Shown here piece after piece: positions 39,248 to 58,139 of a DNA stretch of 64,000 bases (positions within the stretch are counted from its first letter, which is position 1; every line of letters begins with the position of its first letter). Position numbers and translations under genes: made by a program. The notes under the pieces are model-generated. The model was not told the origin of the DNA and did not search any database. It saw only the letters and a list, made by a program, of their open reading frames with translations. The DNA is from Hansfordia pulvinata (lineage: Eukaryota; Ascomycota; Sordariomycetes; Xylariales). The stretch covers positions 1,550,001 to 1,614,000 of the forward strand of contig BJKQ01000005.1 in NCBI GenBank assembly GCA_006538405.1, in the 5' to 3' direction.

Positions 39248-39256
39248 CCATGCAAT
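39248..39256 (+). repeat. Left copy of flanking direct repeat (candidate target-site duplication)
   Basis: CCATGCAAT just outside the left inverted repeat; the same 9 bases occur at 50018-50026 just outside the right one. Similar bases continue (GAGGGTG versus AGGCGTC), so the true duplication could be 9 bp or longer with later changes. Confidence 0.6.
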
Positions 39257-39263
39257 GAGGGTG

Positions 39264-39372
39264 CAGGTCGCGGGGGGTAATTAGTGGCTCGCGGGGGGTC
39301 GCTCCACTTTTCGGACCCACACACCTCGCAGGGGGTCTGGGATATATGCTGGATTAGCGGTTAAGCATATGC
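39264..39372 (+). repeat. Left terminal inverted repeat
   Basis: Begins CAGGTCGCGGGGGGTAATTA and ends TAGCGGTTAAGCATATGC. It matches the reverse complement of 49903-50017 along its length with a few substitutions and small gaps. The outer part is GC-rich, with motifs TAGTGGCTCGCGGGG and TTTTCGGACCCACACACC. The inner edge carries the palindrome GCATATGC. Confidence 0.88.
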
Positions 39373-41499
39373 CACACTTAAAGTGTTAAGTGAATTTAAT
39401 ATAAAGTTATTATTAATAAACTTACACTTTAACACATTTTATTTAATATAAAGTAAACGTTTATAAGGTTAATAAAAGTAAGGCTTTGCCTTAACACCTA
39501 CTGTATATAACACACACTTTATAATAATTTATATATATATAAATTAAAATGTATACTGCCCCCCCTTTTACTTACTTACTTCGTTTACTTCCTTTATTTC
39601 TTTCCTCCTTTCTTCTCTTTTATAATAACTTTATATAATTAATATATGTTAATCCTTTAACCCGCTCTTATTAAGCATATATTAATAATATGTTTATTAT
39701 ATAAAAGTTATTTATAATTAAGATATCGATTAATATTATAATTTAATATTTCCGTATAATATACCTTAATTTAATATATAATAAATATATATTAACACGT
39801 TATAAGTAACACCGTTAAAACTAACCGGAACTTAACCATTTACGGTTAATATTATAATATATACGCTTAATATATACTTAATTAAAAGATATTAATATAT
39901 ATAAGCCCGATATTTAATTTTAACCTTAATTAAAAACTTAATAAAAAGCTTATATTATATATATACTTAACGTGGTATTAATAAAAAATTTAAAAGCGTA
40001 ACGTTAATAATAATAATTATATTATTTATAAGTATAATATAAACTTTATATATATTAAATAATAAGTTAATATAATAATAATATTTACTTAAAAATAATT
40101 AAATAATAAGTATAATAAGGTTAATGCGATACTTAATATATATTAATTATATAAATAACTGCCTTTAAAAACGCCGACACCTTATTTAATATTAATACTT
40201 AATAATAAGTTTTTAAGGTTTTATTATACGCTTTATATATATTAATTATAACTTTAATTACTTTATTTAATTATGCTTTAAGTGTAAGTACGGATAATAT
40301 ATTAAGGATTAACTTAATATAAGTTTAAGTATAATATATACTTAATATATATTAACTTAAAAGATAGCTTTATTATTATATAAGTTAAACTTATTTAAAA
40401 GCGTGTAAATAACCCGTTTTTTAATAATATTAAGTATATATTAATTATAAATTAATTTAAGTTAATACTTATCGTAATATTAATATTATTAAAAAGGATA
40501 AAGGTAAGTTATAAGTGATTTTATTAACGCTTAATATATGCTTCGCTTATATATAATAATACTTTATTAAAATATATAATAATTAAAGGATAATACCACG
40601 CCGACTTTTATAAAGAGTTAAAGTAAGCGTTAATATATATACTTTATATATATTATATATATTAATTATTTATATATAATATTCTTATTAACGGCCCGAT
40701 CCGTAAGTATTATAACGTTATTAAGTGTATCGTATAAATTATATTTATATTTTATATATATTATATATATATTAACTTTTTATAACGTTACCGATATTAA
40801 ATTCGTTAATAAGTTTAATATTAAGTTTTATTATATAAATACACGTAACTTAATATAACCTTTATATATATTAAGTTAATAAAAAAATAAAAGTAAGTTA
40901 ATAAGCCGGACTCGGACCTTAAACCGGTTACCTTAAAGCTGAAAGGTAAGGCTTAAGTTAAAGGTAAAAAGAAAGGTTAATATATAAAATATAAGGTTTA
41001 TATATATTAAGTTAATAATAATTAACGACACTTATTAAAAAGCTTACCTTAATAAAGCTTAATAACGTTAAGGCCCTTATAATTATAAGCGTGTATAATA
41101 AGTTTTTATAAAGCGATATAAATAAGATATATATTAACCGTATATAAAAAGCGAACGCGTTTATAAGCTTATTAAAAAGTTTTAAAGTTACGATAATTAA
41201 AAGGAGTTTAAGGATAATAAGGCTTAAGCGTAATATATATTTAAATATATATACCGGTAAAGGATAAAGAATATAAGGAAGTAAATAAGTGTGAGCTCGG
41301 TATATATTAAGTAAGGATTAAGAATTACAGTTAATTTTTTTAAATAAGATTAAAGATAAGTTATAAATATATAATATATGCTTAATATAAAGTTTAAAAG
41401 GACCCGTTAATTTTTAATAATAAGATAAATTTATAATAAGCATATATTAAGTATAAAAGTAAAAAAAAATTAAGACGGTTTAAAAAGTAATTATATTTA

Positions 41500-43715
41500 A
41501 TTAATACTTATACTTAAAGATTATAAATAAAATATAATTTAATTTATAAGACTTAATATATATATATATATATTTAAAATAATATAAGTATCATAAATTA
41601 AATCTTTTTATTTTAACTCTATATATTATAAATTTTAAAAATATAATAAAATTAAAGAAAATATTAATTGTATATTTATTATATTAAATTATATAAATTA
41701 AAATTTAATTCATTTTAATTATTTTAATTTATTTTATTAATTTTTATAAATTTTTAAAAAATAATAAATATTAAAATAATTAACTTTTTTATATAATTTT
41801 ATAAATAATAATTTAATAAGAAAAAGTATTATTATTATTATTATTATATTATTATTATTATTATTATATATTATATATTAATTTTTTTAAATATATATAT
41901 TATATTTTATATAATTTAAATAAAATATAAAATATAATATGTAAAATATAAAAGAGTTTAATATAAAATATTTATATGTTAAAGTTAATAATTTTTTTAT
42001 AAAAAACTTATATATATATTTATTATATATATATATAATATAAAAGTTTAAATAATAATATTATATTATTTAAAAATAAAATAAAATAAGTATTAAAGTC
42101 TTTTATTATATTTAAGTATTTTTTTTAAAAAATAATATAAGTATTATTTTTTTATGAAAATAAAGAGTTTTTAATAATTTCTTATAATATACTTATAAGA
42201 TTAATTTATTATAATAAAAATAGTTTTTTTTAAATATATTTTATTTATAATATATTTTATAAATAAAATAAAATATTTTTTATAAAAGAAATTACTTATA
42301 TAAAAATTAATATAAAAATAAAAAGATATAAGTTTTAAAATAAAAAGGTTCTTTTATTTTATTTTTATTTTTATAAACTTATAAATTTATAAATAATAAG
42401 TTTTATTTTAATAAAAAGTTAATTTTAAATTTATTATTAAATATATTATTAAAAAACCTTTTATATTATATATATATATATATATAATATTAAATATTAT
42501 TTATTATAATAAATTTATTTTATTTTAATTTATTAACTTTAATAATTATAAATAATATTAATAAATAATAAATTAATCGCTTTTAAAACTTAATTTATAT
42601 ATTAAATAATCCTTTTTTATACTTTATAAATAATATATTATAATATAATAAATAATATTAATATTATTATATATATATATATATATATATATTATAAATA
42701 TTATATTTTATATAATTTAATTAATAACTCTTTTAAAGGTTTAATTATTATTTATATATATTAATTATATAAAAGTTTAAATATATATATAATACCTTTT
42801 AATAATATTTTTTTAAATAAAACTTTATTTCTTTTTATATAAAATAAATTATATATTAATAAAAAGTTTATTATAATAAATAATATTTAATATATATTCT
42901 ATATATATATATAATATATAAGATTTATTAATTTAATAAGATTTTATTTATTTTTATATAAAAATATTAAACTTATTTTAAAAAAAGTCTTATTTATTAT
43001 ATTTAATATTATTTTAAATTTTATTTAAAACATTTTTAAAATAAAAATATAATTTAATATATATTTAAAGAAAATTTATAATATTAAATTTTATATATTA
43101 TAATTTAAAAGTAAAAAGAAAAGATTTAAAGTAAATATAAAAAAATTATAATTAAAACTATTATATTTTTTTAATATAAATTTTTAATTAAATAATTTTT
43201 TATTTATTAAATATATTTTAAATAAAGTTATTTATTATATATATATATATATATATATATTAAACTTTATTTATATAATTTAAACTTTTTAATCCTTTTT
43301 AATAATTATTATTTTATATTATTAAATTATAATATTTTTAAAAATTTTAAAATTAAATTATTTTAAATTAAAACCTTTTCTTAAAATTAATTAATATAAA
43401 ATAATAATAATAAAATTATAATTAAAACTTAAAAAAAATTAATTATATAAATAAATTTTAATATATATATATATATATAATATTTTTTATTTTTTTATTT
43501 AAAATCCTTTTTTAATTTTTATTATATATTATAAGTATTTTAATTTAATTTAATTTTTAAAAATGTAATATTTAAATATATATATATATATTAAATTAAT
43601 ATAAATATTATAAAACTTAAACTTTTTAAAAAAGAATAAAAACTTTTTATTATTATTATTATTATTATTATTTTAATTTATAAAGTATTACTTTTTATAA
43701 TATTATATTTTATAA
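41500..43715. repeat. Near-pure A/T core of the element
   Basis: In this core the sequence is almost only A and T; for example 42241-42300 contains two G/C bases in sixty. CpG, still frequent on both sides, occurs once by my reading (42578). The core starts after the last CpG near 41475 and ends at the abrupt return of CpG near 43731. It could be an older or separately mutated insertion nested in the element. Confidence 0.65.
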
Positions 43716-46700
43716 GTATATGCTAAGCGGACGCTCACTCTTATTACCCTTTTAATTTACATATTTTAAACCTTTTAATACAGTATACGCCTTATATATA
43801 TAAGGGCAATTAAATAATCTTAAAAATTCACTTATCTCTTTTTTATACCGTTACCGTTACTCTCTTAGCTTTTTTAAAGCTTATATAAGGTATATAATAA
43901 TAATCCTTATATAAAGTAATATAATCTTTCTTATAATTATATAAGTTAAGTATATACCGAGAAGTTTAACACCTTTTATTACTTTACTTTTTACCCTTTA
44001 CCTTTATATCTTCTTTTACATATATATACAGCTTATTTAATTATTAAAATAACCTTATCCTCTCTTTAAACCGATATTAACTCGTTTTTTAACGATTTTT
44101 AATAATTAACGTATATTAAGTATATACCGTGTTATTTTAAGTTTAATTAATCGAACCTTTATTTTAACCCTTTATTACTTACTTACTTTATATTATTAAA
44201 GGTAATTTACATAAATTATATACACTTTATATATTAACCTTACACGTAAAATACACTTTATCGTTATAGCCTTTATATTAATAAATTTAAGTATTATAAA
44301 ATTATTATTTGTAAAGTTCGGGACTTCATTATTATTCTTAAATACCCCCTTATTAATAAAAATAGTATTTTAAGCTTTATTTTTATATTAAAACCATTAC
44401 TTTTATTAAAGTTAATAATTATTAAAGTGAAGCAAGTATTTTAAAACATAAAAAAGAAGGTGTGCTTATCCTCTTTATACGCGGTGTATATATTAATTAT
44501 ATAAGTGTTTTTTAATCTTAACCGGAGGTCTTTTAAAAGTATAAAGGCTAACCTTACTTAATATTATATCCTTAAGTACGTTTCTTATACTTATACTTTT
44601 TATATGCCTTTTTAACTTATTAAATCCTATAAATTAAATAATTAAGCTTAATATATATAATTAACTTACTTAAATATTCGATTATACAGTTATACTTTAA
44701 TATTTATATATAGCTTATACACCGTATATAATAAGGTGTAATTTCCTCTTTTTATTAAGAATAATAAAAGGCTTAATAAGCCTTTAAAGACGCTTAATAA
44801 AAAGGTGAAAAGAGAGATTAAGAAGTACGTTTTATGCTTATTATATGTCTTATATATATTAATGTTTTTAGCTTTTATTAATTTGTTTAAAGTAAATAAG
44901 TAATATATGGTTAATTTAAGTGTGTATTAACCGGGAATCGTACTTATAAAAATTAAGACTTTATAATCTTTACTTAAAATAAGGTAATTTTTAATCCTTT
45001 TATAATCCGTATATATTAAGTATAATCTTAAATTAAGTATATTAAATATCCGGCCAGTTTTAATAATAAGCTATAGCATATAATATATATTATTTATTTA
45101 AATATTAATTATATTAATATCCGGTACTTAAAAGTATTATATTAATTTAGTATATACTTAATATAAGATACTTATTATTAAGTTAAATCTTTTAAATTAA
45201 AGCGGAAGATTTATAATATAAATTAATAACTCGTGTTTATAATATATATTAATTATATATATAAAATATAATTATATATATAATTTAAAGCCAATTATTT
45301 TACACCTTTACTTAATGTTTTTTAATATATATATCTTATATAATATAGTCCGGCACTTATATATATTTATTATATACCGAGGCAGCCATTCGCATTTCTT
45401 ACCCTTGCTTATTCGCTTATTAAAAGTTATTATAAAGGATATTCTTTAATAATTACTTAAACTTAACTTTATAACCGTTATAAAACGTATATATATTATA
45501 TATTATTTATACACACGACCTTAATTAACGTGATATAAGTTAATTCCTTATAAGCTTTTAATTTAACGTTATAAGGAGAGTATATAATTAAGATACCTTT
45601 TAAGTTATTTATATAAGTTTAAATATTAAAGACCGGATTTAACGTTTAATTTATAAGGCCTGCTTATTATAACACTTAAACGGTTATTAATTCGTAAGTT
45701 TAATTTATATACCTTGTATAAGCCTTATATATATTAATTATATTAAGTGCTTAATATAAGTTTTCTTTTAAATAAAATAAGCTTACTTATAATAAATAGA
45801 TCCGGGACATCGTTTAATTTAATAATAATAAGTGGCTTATTATATGCTTTGTATATAAGTTTACTCTTTGGTTTCTTAATTAAATAGTATTTAAAATAAA
45901 CCTTTCTTATAAGTTAATAAAATATGCTTATACTTTTTTAATAATTAATTAAGATAACGAAGTGAATCGTAAGCAAACTATATACGTTTTATATGCCTTA
46001 TTAATAAAACCAGGATTTAAGACTTATTTTATTATCTTTTATAATTCTTATAAAATAAAGACTTATAAAGTTATCCTTTTATTTATTTTTTAATTAATTA
46101 TTAACGTTATAAGCTCTTTTATTCGTTTTTATTATATTAATAATTTTAAAATTTAATTTATTATAATAAATATAAATAAAGGTTAAGTATAAGGTAAGTG
46201 GATACTTAATATATATTACGTACTTTATTAATTAAATTAACCTTAAAAAGTACCTTATTAAAAGGGACCCTTATTATTATTAAGAGATATATCTTTAATA
46301 TGTGTTAATCTTTTATAAAGTTTATGTTAAGCGGAACTTTTAAAAGGTTAATAATAATTATATTAAGGTTTACCTTTTACGTAACCTATAAAAGTTAAAG
46401 GATACGGACACGTATACTTAATATGTTAAAAGTATATACTTTTTATTCCTTAATTTACAGTTATAATTTTAAGGTAAGTAAAAGCTATAAATTATTAACG
46501 TATTAATTTAATTTAAATCGCTTATACTTATTATAACTTAAATATATGCTTAAAAGTATATAAACTTAAAGGAGTTATCGTATTTTAAAATTAATAACGT
46601 TATTAACCGTAATTTAATATTAATAAGTGATATCCTTAAATATATTTTTTAACTCTTTATATAACTTACTTATAATTAACTTATATTAATTATACTTAAA

Positions 46701-46995
46701 ATAAAGAAATTAATTATAAAGAAGAATAAAATTAAGGAAATTAAGTTAAGGATTAAGTAAAAGAAAACTTAACGAAACACCTTAAATTAAGCATGTTACA
46801 CGTATATACTTAATAAATAAGAATTTAATAATCGGTCTTAAGCTATTACTTATTCTTAAAATAATAAAAAAAGCTTTAACCCTTATAATTTATTCGATTT
46901 ACTTAATCCGTATATATTAAGCGTTAATTAATTATATACCGCCTTTTCAGAGTTAATTAAGCTTAATAATCCTTCTTTAAATTTATAATTATAAG

Positions 46996-47295
46996 CTTAA
47001 CTTACCTTATCCGCTTTATATATATTTAACACCTCTTTAAGTAATCCTTTATTAAATCGTTAATTTTTAACTTAACTTACCTTATCCGCTTTGTATATAC
47101 TTAACACCTTATTAAGTAATCCTTTATTAAATCGTTAATTTTTAATTTAACTTACCTTATCCGCTTCGTATATACTTAACACCTCTTTAAATAATCCTTT
47201 ATTAAATTATTAATTTTTAACTTAACTTACCTTATCTGCTTTATATATACTTAACACCTCTTTAAGTAATCCTTTATTAAATCGTTAATTTTTAA
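46996..47295 (+). repeat. Tandem array, four copies of a 75-bp unit
   Basis: Units start near 46996, 47071, 47146 and 47221 with a constant 75-bp period. Each contains TTACCTTATCCGCTTTATAT, then TTAACACCTCTTTAAGTAAT and CTTTATTAAATCGTTAATTT. Copies differ by a few single bases, mostly transitions such as CCGC/CTGC and TATATA/TGTATA. Confidence 0.9.
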
Positions 47296-48162
47296 TTTAA
47301 TTAATTATATTAATATATATTAATAATATACGTAATAAGGGCTTACCTTTACTTAAACGCTTAAGGCCTTATATATTAATCTTACCGGCCTTTATTACTT
47401 TAAGATCCCCTTTAACCTTACCTCGTTAACGAACATAACGGAGCGAATCGATCTTAAAAAAAGAAAAGTAAGTATATATAAAGCGTATACGGAATATAAG
47501 GTTATTAATTAATTTAAAGCGTGAATAAAAGTAAATATAATTAAAGGAATAAAAAGCGTAAGTTAAATTAAATCGATTAAAAAATAAGATTTAAGCTTTA
47601 TATATAATTAACACTTACTTAATATTTCCCTTTTTTTACTTTATATATTAATAACCGTTATTACTTTAATATATATAATATAATTATATTTTAATTAATT
47701 ATATAATTAATATATACTTTATATAAAAACTTATAAGGCTTTTATATATAAATAATTAATTATTTATAAGATAAGCATATAAATAATTCTTTAAGTATAC
47801 CTTAAGGTTCGTACTTTAAACGGCCGCTTTTTATAATATATAACTCTTAATTATATAAAGAGATATACGTTATATATATTAAGCAGATTATTAATATTTA
47901 ATTATAATAAGTTAAGGTTACTTATTACTTATAATATTATTTTTTATATACTTAATATCTTTTTATATATTAAAGTAAAGGAGCGGCGGTAAAGATAACT
48001 TTATATTATAACTTATATTAATTATATAAAGATCTTAATTCTTATTGTCCTTAAATTATAAGGTATAATAAGAAAGTAATAATAATAAAAGTATCTTTAT
48101 ATATTTAATATCGATTTCCTTTTTATTTAATGTGTTAAAAAATAATAATATAAGCATATCGC

Positions 48163-48455
48163 GTATATACTTAATATATATATCGTTATTTTAAAACGCT
48201 TTATTAATAATTAAGGATTATTATTTTACCTTATTATCGTTTATATACTTAATATATATATCATCGTTTTAAAACGCCTCGTTAATAATTAAGGATTATT
48301 ATTTTACCTTATTATTATTTATATATTTAATATATATATCGTTATTTTAAAACGCCTTATTAATAATTAAGGATTACTATTTTACCTTATTATCGTTTAT
48401 ATGCTTAATATATGTATCGTTATCTTAAGACGCCTTATTAATAATTAATAATAAA
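48163..48455 (+). repeat. Tandem array, three full and one partial copy of a 78-bp unit
   Basis: The anchor TTAAGGATTA recurs at 48211, 48289 and 48367 (period 78). Each unit holds ATACTTAATATATATATCGT, TTTTAAAACGCCT and TTATTTTACCTTATTAT. The fourth copy loses similarity after TTAATAATTAA. The unit is unrelated in sequence to the 75-bp array 0.9 kb to the left. Confidence 0.88.
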
Positions 48456-49902
48456 ACCCTTTTTATTTCTTAACTCTTTATATACTTAACTTATAATATA
48501 TATATAAGTAATTAAGTCGTTTAATTTAATATAATTATAAAGGTATCTTATAAAGGGAGGCAAGGTAAGATATTAAATAATAAGCTTAATACTTAAAATA
48601 TAATTAACTTATAATATATATATGTTTTTATAATTCTTATTACTTAATAAAATAAGGTGTTATTATATTACTTTTTAAAAGCCGAGTTTACGTTATTACA
48701 TATTAATAATATATATTACTTAAAATATAAAGGTAATCTTACGTTAAATACTTATATTAAAATATAAGTTAATAAATAATCTTATTTATTAAGTTAATCT
48801 TAAGCAGTTTAATATATATATCGTATATAATTATTTATAACTTACTTAAGCTCTTATAAATATTATGCGTTTTACCACCCTTTACTTAAAACTTATACCT
48901 TTAAAGCGTTATATTATAATTAATATATAAACATTATATATTATTATTTATAAATCTCACTTATTTTAAGCTTATAATACCTTTTAAAATCGAATAATTA
49001 ATTTAAGGCGTATTTAAAACTATAATTCTTAATATATAATTATTATATAATCGGTTTATCCTTCTTTATTAGCTTTAAAATAAAAGTTCCGGATATAACG
49101 GCGAAGCTATATAATTAATATATGTAATTAATATATTTAAAAATTTAATACTTATATTAAGTTAATCCTTAAAGGCCACTCCGTATATTAACCCACCTTT
49201 AACATCGATATTATATTTAATAATTATATAATTAATATATAATAAATTTTCTTATTTTATATATTATCCTTACACGCTATTATTTATATTAAATATTATA
49301 ATTACGTAATTTAAGAAGTTTATATAATTAATATATACGTAACTCTTAAGTATACCGCTTACTTACCTTAATATATTATAATTATAATTAATAAGCTTAA
49401 ACATATACTTAATAAATATTATTATTTTATAAATATATTATTAACGTTTTTATCCTTTATTAATAGCTTATTAAACTTTAATTAATACTTAATTATTACT
49501 ATTATTTAAGATAAGCCTTAAATTTTAATTAATAAGCATATACGTGGTATAAAGTCGGTATATACTTATTATAATAATATCCTTAAGATAATAAATTAAA
49601 AATATTATTAATAAGCTTTAAGTTTATACTTAATTAATATATATATATAAATAACGTATATAAGGTTAAACTTACCCTTTATTATTATTAATATCGATAT
49701 AAACTTAAATAATATATTATAAATAAGTGATTTTAATTAACTTAACGTAATAAAAAGGAAAATATAATAAAACCGTGTAAGATTTATTAAGTTTTTATTA
49801 AGTATATACGTAACGTATAATTAATATATATAATATTAAGCTATATATAATTTAAGTCTTATATAAATAAGCGATAACCGGTCTTTAACTTAATTAAGCT
49901 AA

Positions 49903-50017
49903 GCATATGCTTAACCGCTAATCTAGCATATATCCTAAACCCCCCGCGAGGTGTGTGGGTCCGAAAAGTGGCTCGACCCCCCGCGAGCCACTAGTTACCC
50001 CCGCGAGCTGTAACCTG
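49903..50017 (-). repeat. Right terminal inverted repeat
   Basis: Reverse complement of the left repeat. Reading outward-in on the minus strand it has CAGGTTACAGCTCGCGGGGG, then TAACTAGTGGCTCGCGGGGG. Compared with the left copy, its inner part carries RIP-type changes (GCTGGA to GCTAGA, CTGGGA to TTAGGA). The outer CpA sites in CCCACACACC remain in both. Confidence 0.88.
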
Positions 50018-50026
50018 CCATGCAAT
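50018..50026 (+). repeat. Right copy of flanking direct repeat
   Basis: CCATGCAAT immediately after the right inverted repeat, identical to 39248-39256. Confidence 0.6.
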
Positions 50027-55106: not shown

Positions 55107-58100
55107 ATGGCTTCCACCGACGATGCCGACGACGAGGGACTCTGTGTCAACTTCGATGACAGTGAAGCCGTGGAGAAAGCGATTCGCAAGTACGAGGCCA
55201 AACAGGCCATCGACGATACCAACAACCTCTGCGCCATCTGCAATGAGCTGCTGCCGTCCATCTTCAACATCGACTATGAGGGTGGCCATGGGGACGACGA
55301 CGGAGCCCGCTGCCCGTTCGAGAGCAGCAAGCACTACCACAGCCCCGTGACCTTGCACCTCCCCCGGCCCCCGGAGGCTCTCAACACCCGCAACGCGGAC
55401 TGCGGGCTGTGCCGCCTGATCGTGGCGATAGCGTCCCGGCGGAGCGGTGACGACAGCGAGGACGAGCCGCCCCTCCACCTCACACGAAGATCGGAACACA
55501 CCATGATGAAGTATGACCCCGACCAGCGCCTTGGCTACTTTCCGGTCATGACGATCATGGGCGGCATCCACGTGGCCAACCCCCAGCGAGGGAGCCGGAA
55601 CGAGCCTCTCGGGTCCATCTTGCTGGCCGAAGACCGCGACAGCCACACCGACGGGACCGTGCCCAGACACAAGCAGAAGGCCGGAGCCAACGGGACGATA
55701 TCCTTCGTCGCCGGGCAGCCCGTGGCGGCCATCATCAACTTTGCGCTGGTCAGGGAGTGGATGAGCTACTGCGACACGAGCCACCCGGGCTGCCGCAGCG
55801 TCCCAGGCGCCTGCAGCTCCAGCTCGGTGCACTACCACCGTCGGTTGATCGACGTCCGGCTCGGGCAGATTGTGCCTGCCTTCCCAGGCGCCAGATACAT
55901 GGCGCTGTCGTACGTATGGGGTCGGGATGCGCCTCGCCTGGCTACGACCAGGTCAATCGAGGCATTCAGCCGGCCGGGAGGCCTATTCAGCGACAAGGCG
56001 GACCCGGCCATCCCGCTGACCATCCGGCACGCCATCCGGGTCGCCGGGGCGCTGGACATCCCCTACCTCTGGGTCGACAACCTGTGCATCATCCAGGACG
56101 ACGAGGCCGACAAGGCCGCCCACCTGCCGCACATGGACCACATCTTCGGACACGCTGCCCTCGTCCTCATCGCAGCCACGGGCAAGGACTCGAGCGCCGG
56201 GCTGCCGGGCATCGGGCCTGACTACCCGCGGGCAGCTACAACCCAGCACGAGGCCAGCGTCACGTACGGCCAGGGGCACGAGAGGTGGCGGAATCGCCGT
56301 CTGATAACGGTTCAGCCGTCCATGAACCAGGCTCTCCGGGCGAGGACGTGGTCGCGGCGAGGCTGGACCTTCCAGCAAGCCCTGCTTACCCGGCGAACGC
56401 TGGTTCTCACCGAAAATCTGGCGTACTGGAGCTGCCGGGGCAGCTCCTCGCAGGAGGACATCCTCTTCACCTGGGCCACCGCCGAGGGGGTCCCTCATCC
56501 ACCTCCCCTGCCGTCGTCGCCACCGCCGTCCGCGAATGAGCACAAGCAAGAAGACGGGGACGTGCTCATCAGCACGGGACAGAGCATCGAAACGTCCCAC
56601 TGGGGCACGAGCATGGCGCAGGCCTCGGTTAGCTGCCATATCGCCAAGTACTGCCAGAACGCCGAGGACTTCTCGCAGCGCGTCTTCGGCCACGAGAGCG
56701 ACGCCCTCTGGGCCTACGTCGGGCTCCTGCGCCAGCTGCGCACCAGCTTCCCGCGGGGGTTCATCTGGGCCATGCCCTACGAAGAGATGGACATGGCCCT
56801 CCTGTGGGACACGGGCTGCATATGCCGCGAGTACCGGCACTGTCGCCACAACATCTTCACCGCTACCACCACCGCTACCACCACCGCTACCACTTCCTCT
56901 CCTAGTAGCTCGATTACGGGTGGCAGTCAAGCCTACCGCCTGCCCTTTCCCAGCTGGTCGTGGCTCTCCATCAGCCACGCAATCCGCTTCCGCAACCAGT
57001 GTAACGAGCCCGTCGTAACCGAGGTCGCCTGGGGACAGCCCTTGCTGCAGGTCTCGCGGTGCGCGTTCCTGTCGCCGTCACCCGGGCGCCGTACCCGCCG
57101 CCTCCTCTGGTGTCACCTGAGAGCCGCGCTCCTCTGCAAGCCCAGCGTAGCCCGGCTGCTGCCTGCGTCAGTCTTGGCGCGTTTGCCGAGCTCGTGCTGC
57201 CACAGCAGCAGCAGCAGCGCCGCAAACGCCACCGACGATGGCGCGGTCGTCACCACCAACGCTACCACCACCGCCGCCAAGGACGGCAAAAGCGGCGGTG
57301 GCAACAGCAACAACAGCAGCAGCAGCAGCAATAACAAAGTGGCTATAACGACCCCGGACGACACAGCAGAGGAGATGGAGACGCAGACGGAGTCAGCCCC
57401 CTTACCGCTGCCCCCCCAGCGAGCGCCTACCCTGGAGGCGGCGCACGAGAGCCTGGACTACGGCTACCTCCGGTTCAAGGCACGGACCGCGAGGCTCTGG
57501 CTGTCGTACAAGGCGCCGCCACTGGATGCGCGGAGAATTGCCCCGCGGCACCGGAGACTCGCCTCGAGGAGCGTCTGGTCGAGCACCCCGCACGCGCTGC
57601 GGGCCCTCTTAGGGCGGTGCGAGCACCTGTCGCGGCCAGACGCGTCTCGCGCGACCGAGATCGTCGCTGACGTGAATCTGGAAATGGGAGACGGCGGCGA
57701 CGGTGGCAACGACGACGACAGTGGCAACGACGAGAACGATGAAGACGCCGAGGTCGCTGGCGGACCCAAGAAGGAGGCAGCGCGCCTGACGCAGATGATG
57801 GTCCCGAGGAACTTCTTCGAGGGCGGGAACAACGTCCGGAGGTCGGCCGACGGCACGGCGTGGCGGGAGGGCGAGTTTGTGTTGCTCTCGGCGAACGCGG
57901 CGGCAGACCCTCAGGACGAGCTGTGCCGTCCGTCCGAGTCGCCGCTGGCGTGCGGCAACATTGTGCACCGGAAGGGCTGCGGCCACGTCGAGAGCTACAA
58001 CCTGCTGCTGGTGGAGAAGTGCGGGGGCCTGCGGTACCGAGCCGGCATCGTTCGGGTGACGAAGCGGACCTGGGAGCGGGTGATGGGGGCCAGTGGGGGC

Positions 58101-58139
58101 AGGAGGGTCAGAGACGAGGCGGACATTGTGTTGGCTTGA
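55107..58139 (+). CDS. HET-domain (heterokaryon incompatibility-type) protein
   Basis: A 1010-residue intronless protein. HET domains in fungi trigger regulated cell death upon non-self recognition, although most family members are uncharacterised. The HET domain spans about residues 264-430 with all three usual blocks: YMALSYVWG, then LDIPYLWVDNLCIIQDD, then RTWSRRGWTFQQALLTRRTL. Before it are Cys pairs (CAICNELLP, CGLCRLI) commonly seen in such proteins. After the domain, residues of about 450-760 contain Pro, Thr and Ser/Asn-rich low-complexity insertions (GGGNSNNSSSSSNNK), including a CAG-repeat-coded stretch near 57315-57335. An acidic Asp/Asn/Gly run lies near 57690-57750. I see no partner domain (NACHT, patatin, ankyrin), so an effector/receptor architecture is not shown. 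The ATG at 55107 is in good context and gives an uninterrupted frame. Confidence 0.9.
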   Translation: MASTDDADDEGLCVNFDDSEAVEKAIRKYEAKQAIDDTNNLCAICNELLPSIFNIDYEGGHGDDDGARCPFESSKHYHSPVTLHLPRPPEALNTRNADCGLCRLIVAIASRRSGDDSEDEPPLHLTRRSEHTMMKYDPDQRLGYFPVMTIMGGIHVANPQRGSRNEPLGSILLAEDRDSHTDGTVPRHKQKAGANGTISFVAGQPVAAIINFALVREWMSYCDTSHPGCRSVPGACSSSSVHYHRRLIDVRLGQIVPAFPGARYMALSYVWGRDAPRLATTRSIEAFSRPGGLFSDKADPAIPLTIRHAIRVAGALDIPYLWVDNLCIIQDDEADKAAHLPHMDHIFGHAALVLIAATGKDSSAGLPGIGPDYPRAATTQHEASVTYGQGHERWRNRRLITVQPSMNQALRARTWSRRGWTFQQALLTRRTLVLTENLAYWSCRGSSSQEDILFTWATAEGVPHPPPLPSSPPPSANEHKQEDGDVLISTGQSIETSHWGTSMAQASVSCHIAKYCQNAEDFSQRVFGHESDALWAYVGLLRQLRTSFPRGFIWAMPYEEMDMALLWDTGCICREYRHCRHNIFTATTTATTTATTSSPSSSITGGSQAYRLPFPSWSWLSISHAIRFRNQCNEPVVTEVAWGQPLLQVSRCAFLSPSPGRRTRRLLWCHLRAALLCKPSVARLLPASVLARLPSSCCHSSSSSAANATDDGAVVTTNATTTAAKDGKSGGGNSNNSSSSSNNKVAITTPDDTAEEMETQTESAPLPLPPQRAPTLEAAHESLDYGYLRFKARTARLWLSYKAPPLDARRIAPRHRRLASRSVWSSTPHALRALLGRCEHLSRPDASRATEIVADVNLEMGDGGDGGNDDDSGNDENDEDAEVAGGPKKEAARLTQMMVPRNFFEGGNNVRRSADGTAWREGEFVLLSANAAADPQDELCRPSESPLACGNIVHRKGCGHVESYNLLLVEKCGGLRYRAGIVRVTKRTWERVMGASGGRRVRDEADIVLA

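Follow-up and report, generated by a model that had tools for sequence, protein, structure and literature searches.

A large inverted-repeat DNA transposon with an AT-rich, mutated interior and better-preserved ends, present in four copies in Hansfordia pulvinata

Repeat-induced point mutation (RIP) is usually regarded as the end of a fungal transposon, and the AT-rich DNA of fungi is a likely trigger of heterochromatin. Among the transposons with terminal inverted repeats (TIRs), the Kyakuja/Dileera/Zisupton (KDZ) elements are large fungal elements with 8-bp target-site duplications, Polinton/Maverick elements are large and have long TIRs, and Pack-MULEs, of the Mutator-like elements (MULEs), carry captured DNA. 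The element described here lies in a 64,000-nucleotide stretch of the genome of the ascomycete Hansfordia pulvinata (contig BJKQ01000005.1, positions 1,550,001 to 1,614,000; the whole stretch is called the window). Its target-site duplication is 9 bp in each of four copies, which separates it from KDZ elements; no genome match to the KDZ domain was found, and the control genomes were equally without one. As far as the sources cited describe these groups, Polinton/Maverick elements duplicate 6 bp (PMC10045372), and so differ likewise; MULEs duplicate 8-11 bp and have TIRs of 14-500 bp, with an ascomycete Hop sub-group at 85-99 bp (PMC6446971); and AcademH elements duplicate 9 or 10 bp (PMC10045372) and are low-copy in Basidiomycota, Ascomycota and Mucoromycota (PMC10799480). 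The window element resembles Hop-type MULEs in its duplication and in its TIRs of roughly 100 bp, and AcademH in its duplication, low copy number and ascomycete host. The structure is therefore compatible with both groups, and membership of neither is shown. Literature searches on DUF6589, and on 9-bp target-site duplications with fungal and RIP terms, gave no match.

The AT-rich block of the window is an element of 10,761 bp, as read directly from the sequence and from alignment of its ends (coordinates of all features are collected in Table 1). The two TIRs are 90% identical over 115 bp by blastn, and the perfect 9-bp duplication CCATGCAAT abuts both of them directly. A preliminary description of this stretch had proposed a single insertion of a very large TIR transposon, not an AT isochore, with the same nine bases at both flanks, and would have given up this view had the TIRs occurred only here and the interior been syntenic in related species. 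A blastn search of the 46.8-Mb genome, whose counts are lower bounds, found the TIR in at least eight places, which are the two ends of this element and of three further full-length elements. Perfect 9-bp duplications flank all four and all are different (CCATGCAAT, CAACGCCCT, TCCATTCCC and CGTGTCGCG), so that the proposal is supported. The left end, which begins GAGGGTGCAGG at 39257, had been put 7 bp too far in, at 39264. With inverted terminal repeats and a duplication of fixed length at several loci, the element belongs to class II. The GC content of all eight 600-bp flanks is 53-65%, and the insertions were therefore into ordinary DNA.

Short copies, which the preliminary description had also suggested seeking, were not recovered: neither the TIR blastn nor a genome pattern scan found a solo or short TIR copy. 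A 20-bp TIR word with up to three mismatches matches twice in the window, once per end (mean 0.00 in 100 shuffles). The genome pattern scan, at up to three mismatches, gave 15 matches. Seven of these are true ends; the remaining eight all carry three mismatches and are level with the reversed-pattern control (9), and therefore no solo TIR is claimed. The TIR word had no exact match among viral contigs.

The four copies are colinear, with main blocks 90-94% identical, and they differ almost entirely by C/T or G/A. Across the 8,392 columns outside the core that have no gaps, 31 transversions are confined to a single copy (6 in the window copy, 10 in C9a, 12 in C18 and 3 in C9b), and there is no 2:2 split. 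The copies were therefore near-identical when they spread and descend in a star-like manner, the RIP mutations following afterwards; the low counts indicate that the spread was recent. The 1,151 arm columns with C/T or G/A differences comprise 220 CpA, 394 CpT, 396 CpG and 141 CpC sites, and in the arms CpA and TpG reach only 0.25-0.38 of expectation even when each column is read in its most C/G-rich form. This signature is RIP-like; since the share of CpG is high, ordinary deamination of methylated cytosine may also contribute.

The ends have fared differently from the interior. Mutated cells at C/G-bearing columns rise from 2-3% in the outer 58 bp to 18-20% at 58-116 bp and 29-37% at 500-2000 bp; the TIRs have therefore been partly spared from RIP. 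The outermost 11 bp of the left and right ends agree at 7 of 11 positions, this difference between the ends is kept in all four copies, and the sole change among copies within these 11 bp is RIP-like, at the final base of the right end of C18. Further in, the motif TCGCGGGG recurs at the positions given in Table 1. Some of these repeats are lost in other copies (the C18 right end, for example, has one exact repeat), and they are candidate transposase binding sites. The right TIR of the C9:1979740 copy is without one repeat unit of about 20 bp, probably through deletion between TCGCGGGG repeats.

Taking these results with those below, we consider it on balance probable that this is a large, non-autonomous TIR transposon that was moved in trans and whose interior was AT-rich before the burst. 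On the last point, the fraction of columns in which any copy has C or G drops from 0.53-0.57 to 0.19-0.20 across the inner edge of the TIR on both sides. In the 116-200 bp zone, both ends pooled, only 33 of 168 columns have C or G in any copy, and mutation after the burst was mild there: 21 of the 33 sites are unmutated, nine are mutated in one copy, two in two and one in three (CpA 22%, n=9; CpG 12%, n=4; CpT 8%, n=18; CpC 0%, n=2). Together with an outer 58 bp that is nearly free of RIP, this sharp drop despite mild later mutation favours an interior that was AT-rich and RIP-scarred before the burst, with moderate support and short of proof. A profile-likelihood fit of the ancestral GC, allowing RIP to vary from site to site, gave a best value of 0.20 at 116-200 bp, where 0.5 was worse by 4.3 log units; 0.34 at 200-300 bp (0.5 worse by 0.3); 0.24 at 300-600 bp (worse by 2.7); and about 0.32-0.34 at 600-2000 bp (worse by 2.3). 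Within the TIR, at 58-116 bp, the best value was 0.64, the edge of the grid.

The ultra-AT core is consistent with this order of events. It has 38 variable transition columns, compared with 334 in the left arm, which is of similar length; at 29 of the 38, three copies have T or A, and some of these differences may therefore be new mutations rather than spared sites. Within the core lies a relic long terminal repeat (LTR), whose presence fits an interior that was AT-rich before the burst. Since the C to T and G to A changes of RIP keep purine/pyrimidine identity, sequences were also compared in a purine/pyrimidine code; the relic is 72-84% identical in bases and, in alignments confined to the LTR, 88-90% identical in this code to a family of about 325 bp found in nine other fetched regions. 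The LTRs of this family probably ended in TG..CA before RIP. On C25, C26 and C12 two such LTRs are separated by about 8 kb, and the sequence that they enclose is shared. The window copy has no clear similarity past the LTR in purine/pyrimidine code, longer alignments being at about control identity, and it is therefore taken as a solo LTR. The core was also considered as a module common to other elements; this was rejected, the only clear similarity in the code being the LTR of about 330 bp. The left and right arms show no similarity to each other above control. The retroelements themselves, about 8 kb long, form a RIP-mutated family (approximately C26:111575-119700, C25:110175-118420 and C12:1510270-1518810), and their LTRs, of about 325 bp, are present in six further fetched regions.

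The preliminary description had allowed that the element was later filled with others, which is partly right, given the relic LTR in the core and the nested element in one sister copy. The nested part of C9:2101670-2120386, which spans about 7.9 kb and carries 159-bp direct repeats (83% identical), resembles an LTR element.

The strongest alternative is a history in a single phase, in which the burst would have started from an interior of normal GC, with all RIP later, independent in each copy and saturating at susceptible sites. This is a serious possibility, though we hold it to be less probable than an interior AT-rich beforehand. When uneven RIP is simulated, sites mutated in none to three copies appear in similar proportions, and in the 200-300 bp zone no ancestral GC is a clearly better fit than 0.5. 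However, simulated RIP sequence retains C or G in 33-39% of columns, where the real arms retain it in about 24%; just inside both TIRs, where mutation since the burst was mild, the share of columns with C/G has already fallen to 20%; a GC of 0.5 is disfavoured in the other three interior zones; and the ultra-AT core is common to the copies with few C/T or G/A differences. Three points tell against our preference for a prior AT-rich state: the fit uses small counts and a single model of uneven RIP; the 200-300 bp zone is indifferent to it; and a simpler version of the fit returned an impossible 0.99 at 58-116 bp, so that the method bears little weight.

The preliminary description had proposed that a transposase might be sought in the interior; none could be shown, and there is little sign of protein coding. 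In purine/pyrimidine code the period-3 signal of the left arm averages 0.9 and that of the right arm 1.4, where the random null is 0.98; the seven window open reading frames of at least 400 amino acids give 3.5-6.5, and four LTR elements mutated by RIP average 2.2-2.8. The 95% point of the null is exceeded by 21-27% of stretches in the LTR elements and by 6% and 8% of those in the two arms. Hidden Markov model profiles in purine/pyrimidine code, which RIP does not erode, were made from 31 fungal MULE proteins and from 17 proteins with DUF6589, which we take to be the Academ transposase domain; the named sources of the latter are basidiomycetes. In the arms neither set scored above 22.5 bits, and reversed-profile controls reached 25.6. 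Simulated genes scored 519-713 bits (eight MULE) and 273-621 bits (eight DUF6589), single exons of 200 amino acids scored 82-209, and a distant MULE held out of the profile (P0036) reached 68, with its control at 19. When the nested insertion and 12 other fetched regions were scanned with the MULE and DUF6589 profiles, five forward scores (27.3-30.8) in 156 scans rose above the largest control (26.8); all five lie near the end of a profile and were not convincing.

Period-3 in GC, purine/pyrimidine frame scores, a probabilistic coding score and helicase motif scans indicated no consistent gene; the coding score peaked on the minus strand at about 47.9-48.4 kb, over the 78-bp array. Decoded frames (six of the 12 arm frames) had no Pfam match at E<=1. 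Six-frame read-through of the arms against Pfam gave DnaA_N (E 3.9e-5), HCV_NS2 (0.059) and BH3 (0.43), all below cut-offs and taken as chance; the same treatment of a RIP-mutated LTR element yielded nothing credible, so that this negative has little power. In the genome PF10551 had no match at E<=1, a search that RIP-mutated copies may escape. PF18758 likewise had none at E<=1, and since no control genome matched either, and mutated copies may again escape, its absence is unproven. PF20231 had a single match below cut-off (E 0.145), with the control genomes without a match and the same caveat for RIP-mutated copies.

That the interior shows so little trace of coding points to a non-autonomous element: no DDE transposase was found in it, and it would depend on an enzyme supplied in trans. 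Several observations pull the other way. Three stretches of the right arm reach a period-3 of 3.8-5.9 and one of the left arm 3.7, and the two tandem arrays have periods of 75 and 78 bp, divisible by three, which leaves room for a short or fast-evolving gene. The periodicity test is also weak, since in the median the LTR elements (1.13-1.45) lie close to the right arm (1.14), and parts of a regulator gene next to the element drop to the null as well. Further, the positive controls were simulated from the profile proteins themselves, with a single truly held-out protein, and earlier RIP-model scans gave best scores of 28.5 (MULE) and 30.6 (DUF6589) against controls of 26.2 and 30.0. The arrays, for which 0% indels were reported, are possibly the remains of protein repeats.

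If the element once carried its own genes, an AcademH-type transposon, with transposase and helicase since destroyed by RIP, would account for the 9-bp duplication and the four copies, and 10.8 kb has room for two long genes. We regard this as unlikely: a search for SF2-helicase motifs in decoded frames gave no clear pattern, the DUF6589 profiles found nothing above control in the arms, and coding periodicity there is weak; neither a helicase nor a transposase is shown in the element. A decayed autonomous MULE is less likely again. The lengths of its duplication and TIRs would suit that group, but at 10.8 kb the element is unlike it, the periodicity is weak, the arms stay at control level with profiles that still recovered the held-out protein, and no MULE transposase was detected in the arms or, within the reach of the PF10551 search, in the genome. 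The element is accordingly not filed as an autonomous MULE. FAR1/SWIM-type MULEs of the kind sampled are largely refuted; a clade outside the 31 proteins could escape. Finally, chance inverted repeats round an ordinary AT isochore or a segmental duplication can be dismissed, since, although other AT-rich blocks are present in the genome, four copies with different perfect 9-bp duplications refute them.

On the favoured account of a non-autonomous element moved in trans, the 9-bp duplications suggest a cut-and-paste enzyme: a DDE transposase would bind the CGCGGGG-bearing TIRs and make cuts staggered by 9 bp. The element, without a transposase of its own and with an interior presumably already AT-rich, RIP-scarred and holding a decayed LTR in its core, would then have undergone its burst. 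The ends would stay intact because RIP spares the edges of repeats and because only copies with working ends can move. A search of the genome for a matching transposase found none, and all four copies are therefore probably no longer able to move. Tentatively, the element could be seen as a vehicle for silenced DNA, in which RIP-spared ends carried 10.5 kb of RIP-scarred, LTR-bearing, gene-less interior in trans to at least three new sites of normal GC; the interior would in that case be either a decayed element or heterochromatin that had been captured. The element is real and well defined and its general kind is already known; what might surprise a specialist is the hint of spread after RIP-scarring. 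If this is true, RIP inactivates the genes of TIR elements yet need not stop their movement where transposase is supplied in trans, the edges being spared. Furthermore, AT-rich DNA would be movable next to genes, and each jump could seed new heterochromatin beside them. Four copies with clear footprints make spread after RIP testable by comparison of strains.

Table 1. Positions of the element, its parts and its copies (window coordinates unless a contig is named)
Feature	Position	Strand	Remarks
Left target-site duplication CCATGCAAT	39248..39256	.	identical to 50018-50026
Left TIR, 116 bp	39257..39372	+	TCGCGGGG at element positions 12 and 33; outer 58 bp nearly RIP-free
Left arm	39373..41450	.	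about 18% GC, RIP-mutated; purine/pyrimidine periodicity at null level
Ultra-AT core	41450..43700	.	about 5% GC; 95-98% identity to the other three copies
Relic LTR, family of about 325 bp	42430..42765 (approximate)	+	similarity to nine other fetched regions
Right arm	43700..49902	.	about 18% GC, RIP-mutated; periodicity about null save three short spots
Tandem array, 75 bp x 4.5	46963..47300	.	
Tandem array, 78 bp x 3.7	48157..48448	.	
Right TIR, 115 bp	49903..50017	-	TCGCGGGG at 12, 32 and 69 from outer end
Right target-site duplication CCATGCAAT	50018..50026	.	identical to 39248-39256
Element copy, window (W)	39257-50017		
Element copy C9a	C9:1979740-1990460		
Element copy C18	C18:438809-449513		
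Element copy C9b	C9:2101670-2120386		18.7 kb owing to nested insertion of about 7.9 kb

The neighbours of the element in the window, identified by eye, are a possible arabinanase gene on one side and a Zn2Cys6 regulator on the other; a HET-domain gene (relatives in PF06985) follows at 55107-58139. Among the best 120 of 378 database relatives of this last gene, identity is at most 37%, so that for this gene the protein collection seems to lack the host fungus or a near relative.

Another giant element, about 10.44 kb long, was seen at C5:804709-815150 and C22:4604-15046. It is AT-rich, with a period-3 mean of 1.8 and an ultra-AT core that contains two relic LTRs; its TIRs, of about 1.95 kb, are 90% identical in the C5 copy and 71% in the C22 copy, and its ends are CGGCGGGCGATAGGCGTCACT with TA on both flanks. 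The two copies share one flank of 4.6 kb, so that segmental duplication or rearrangement was also involved.

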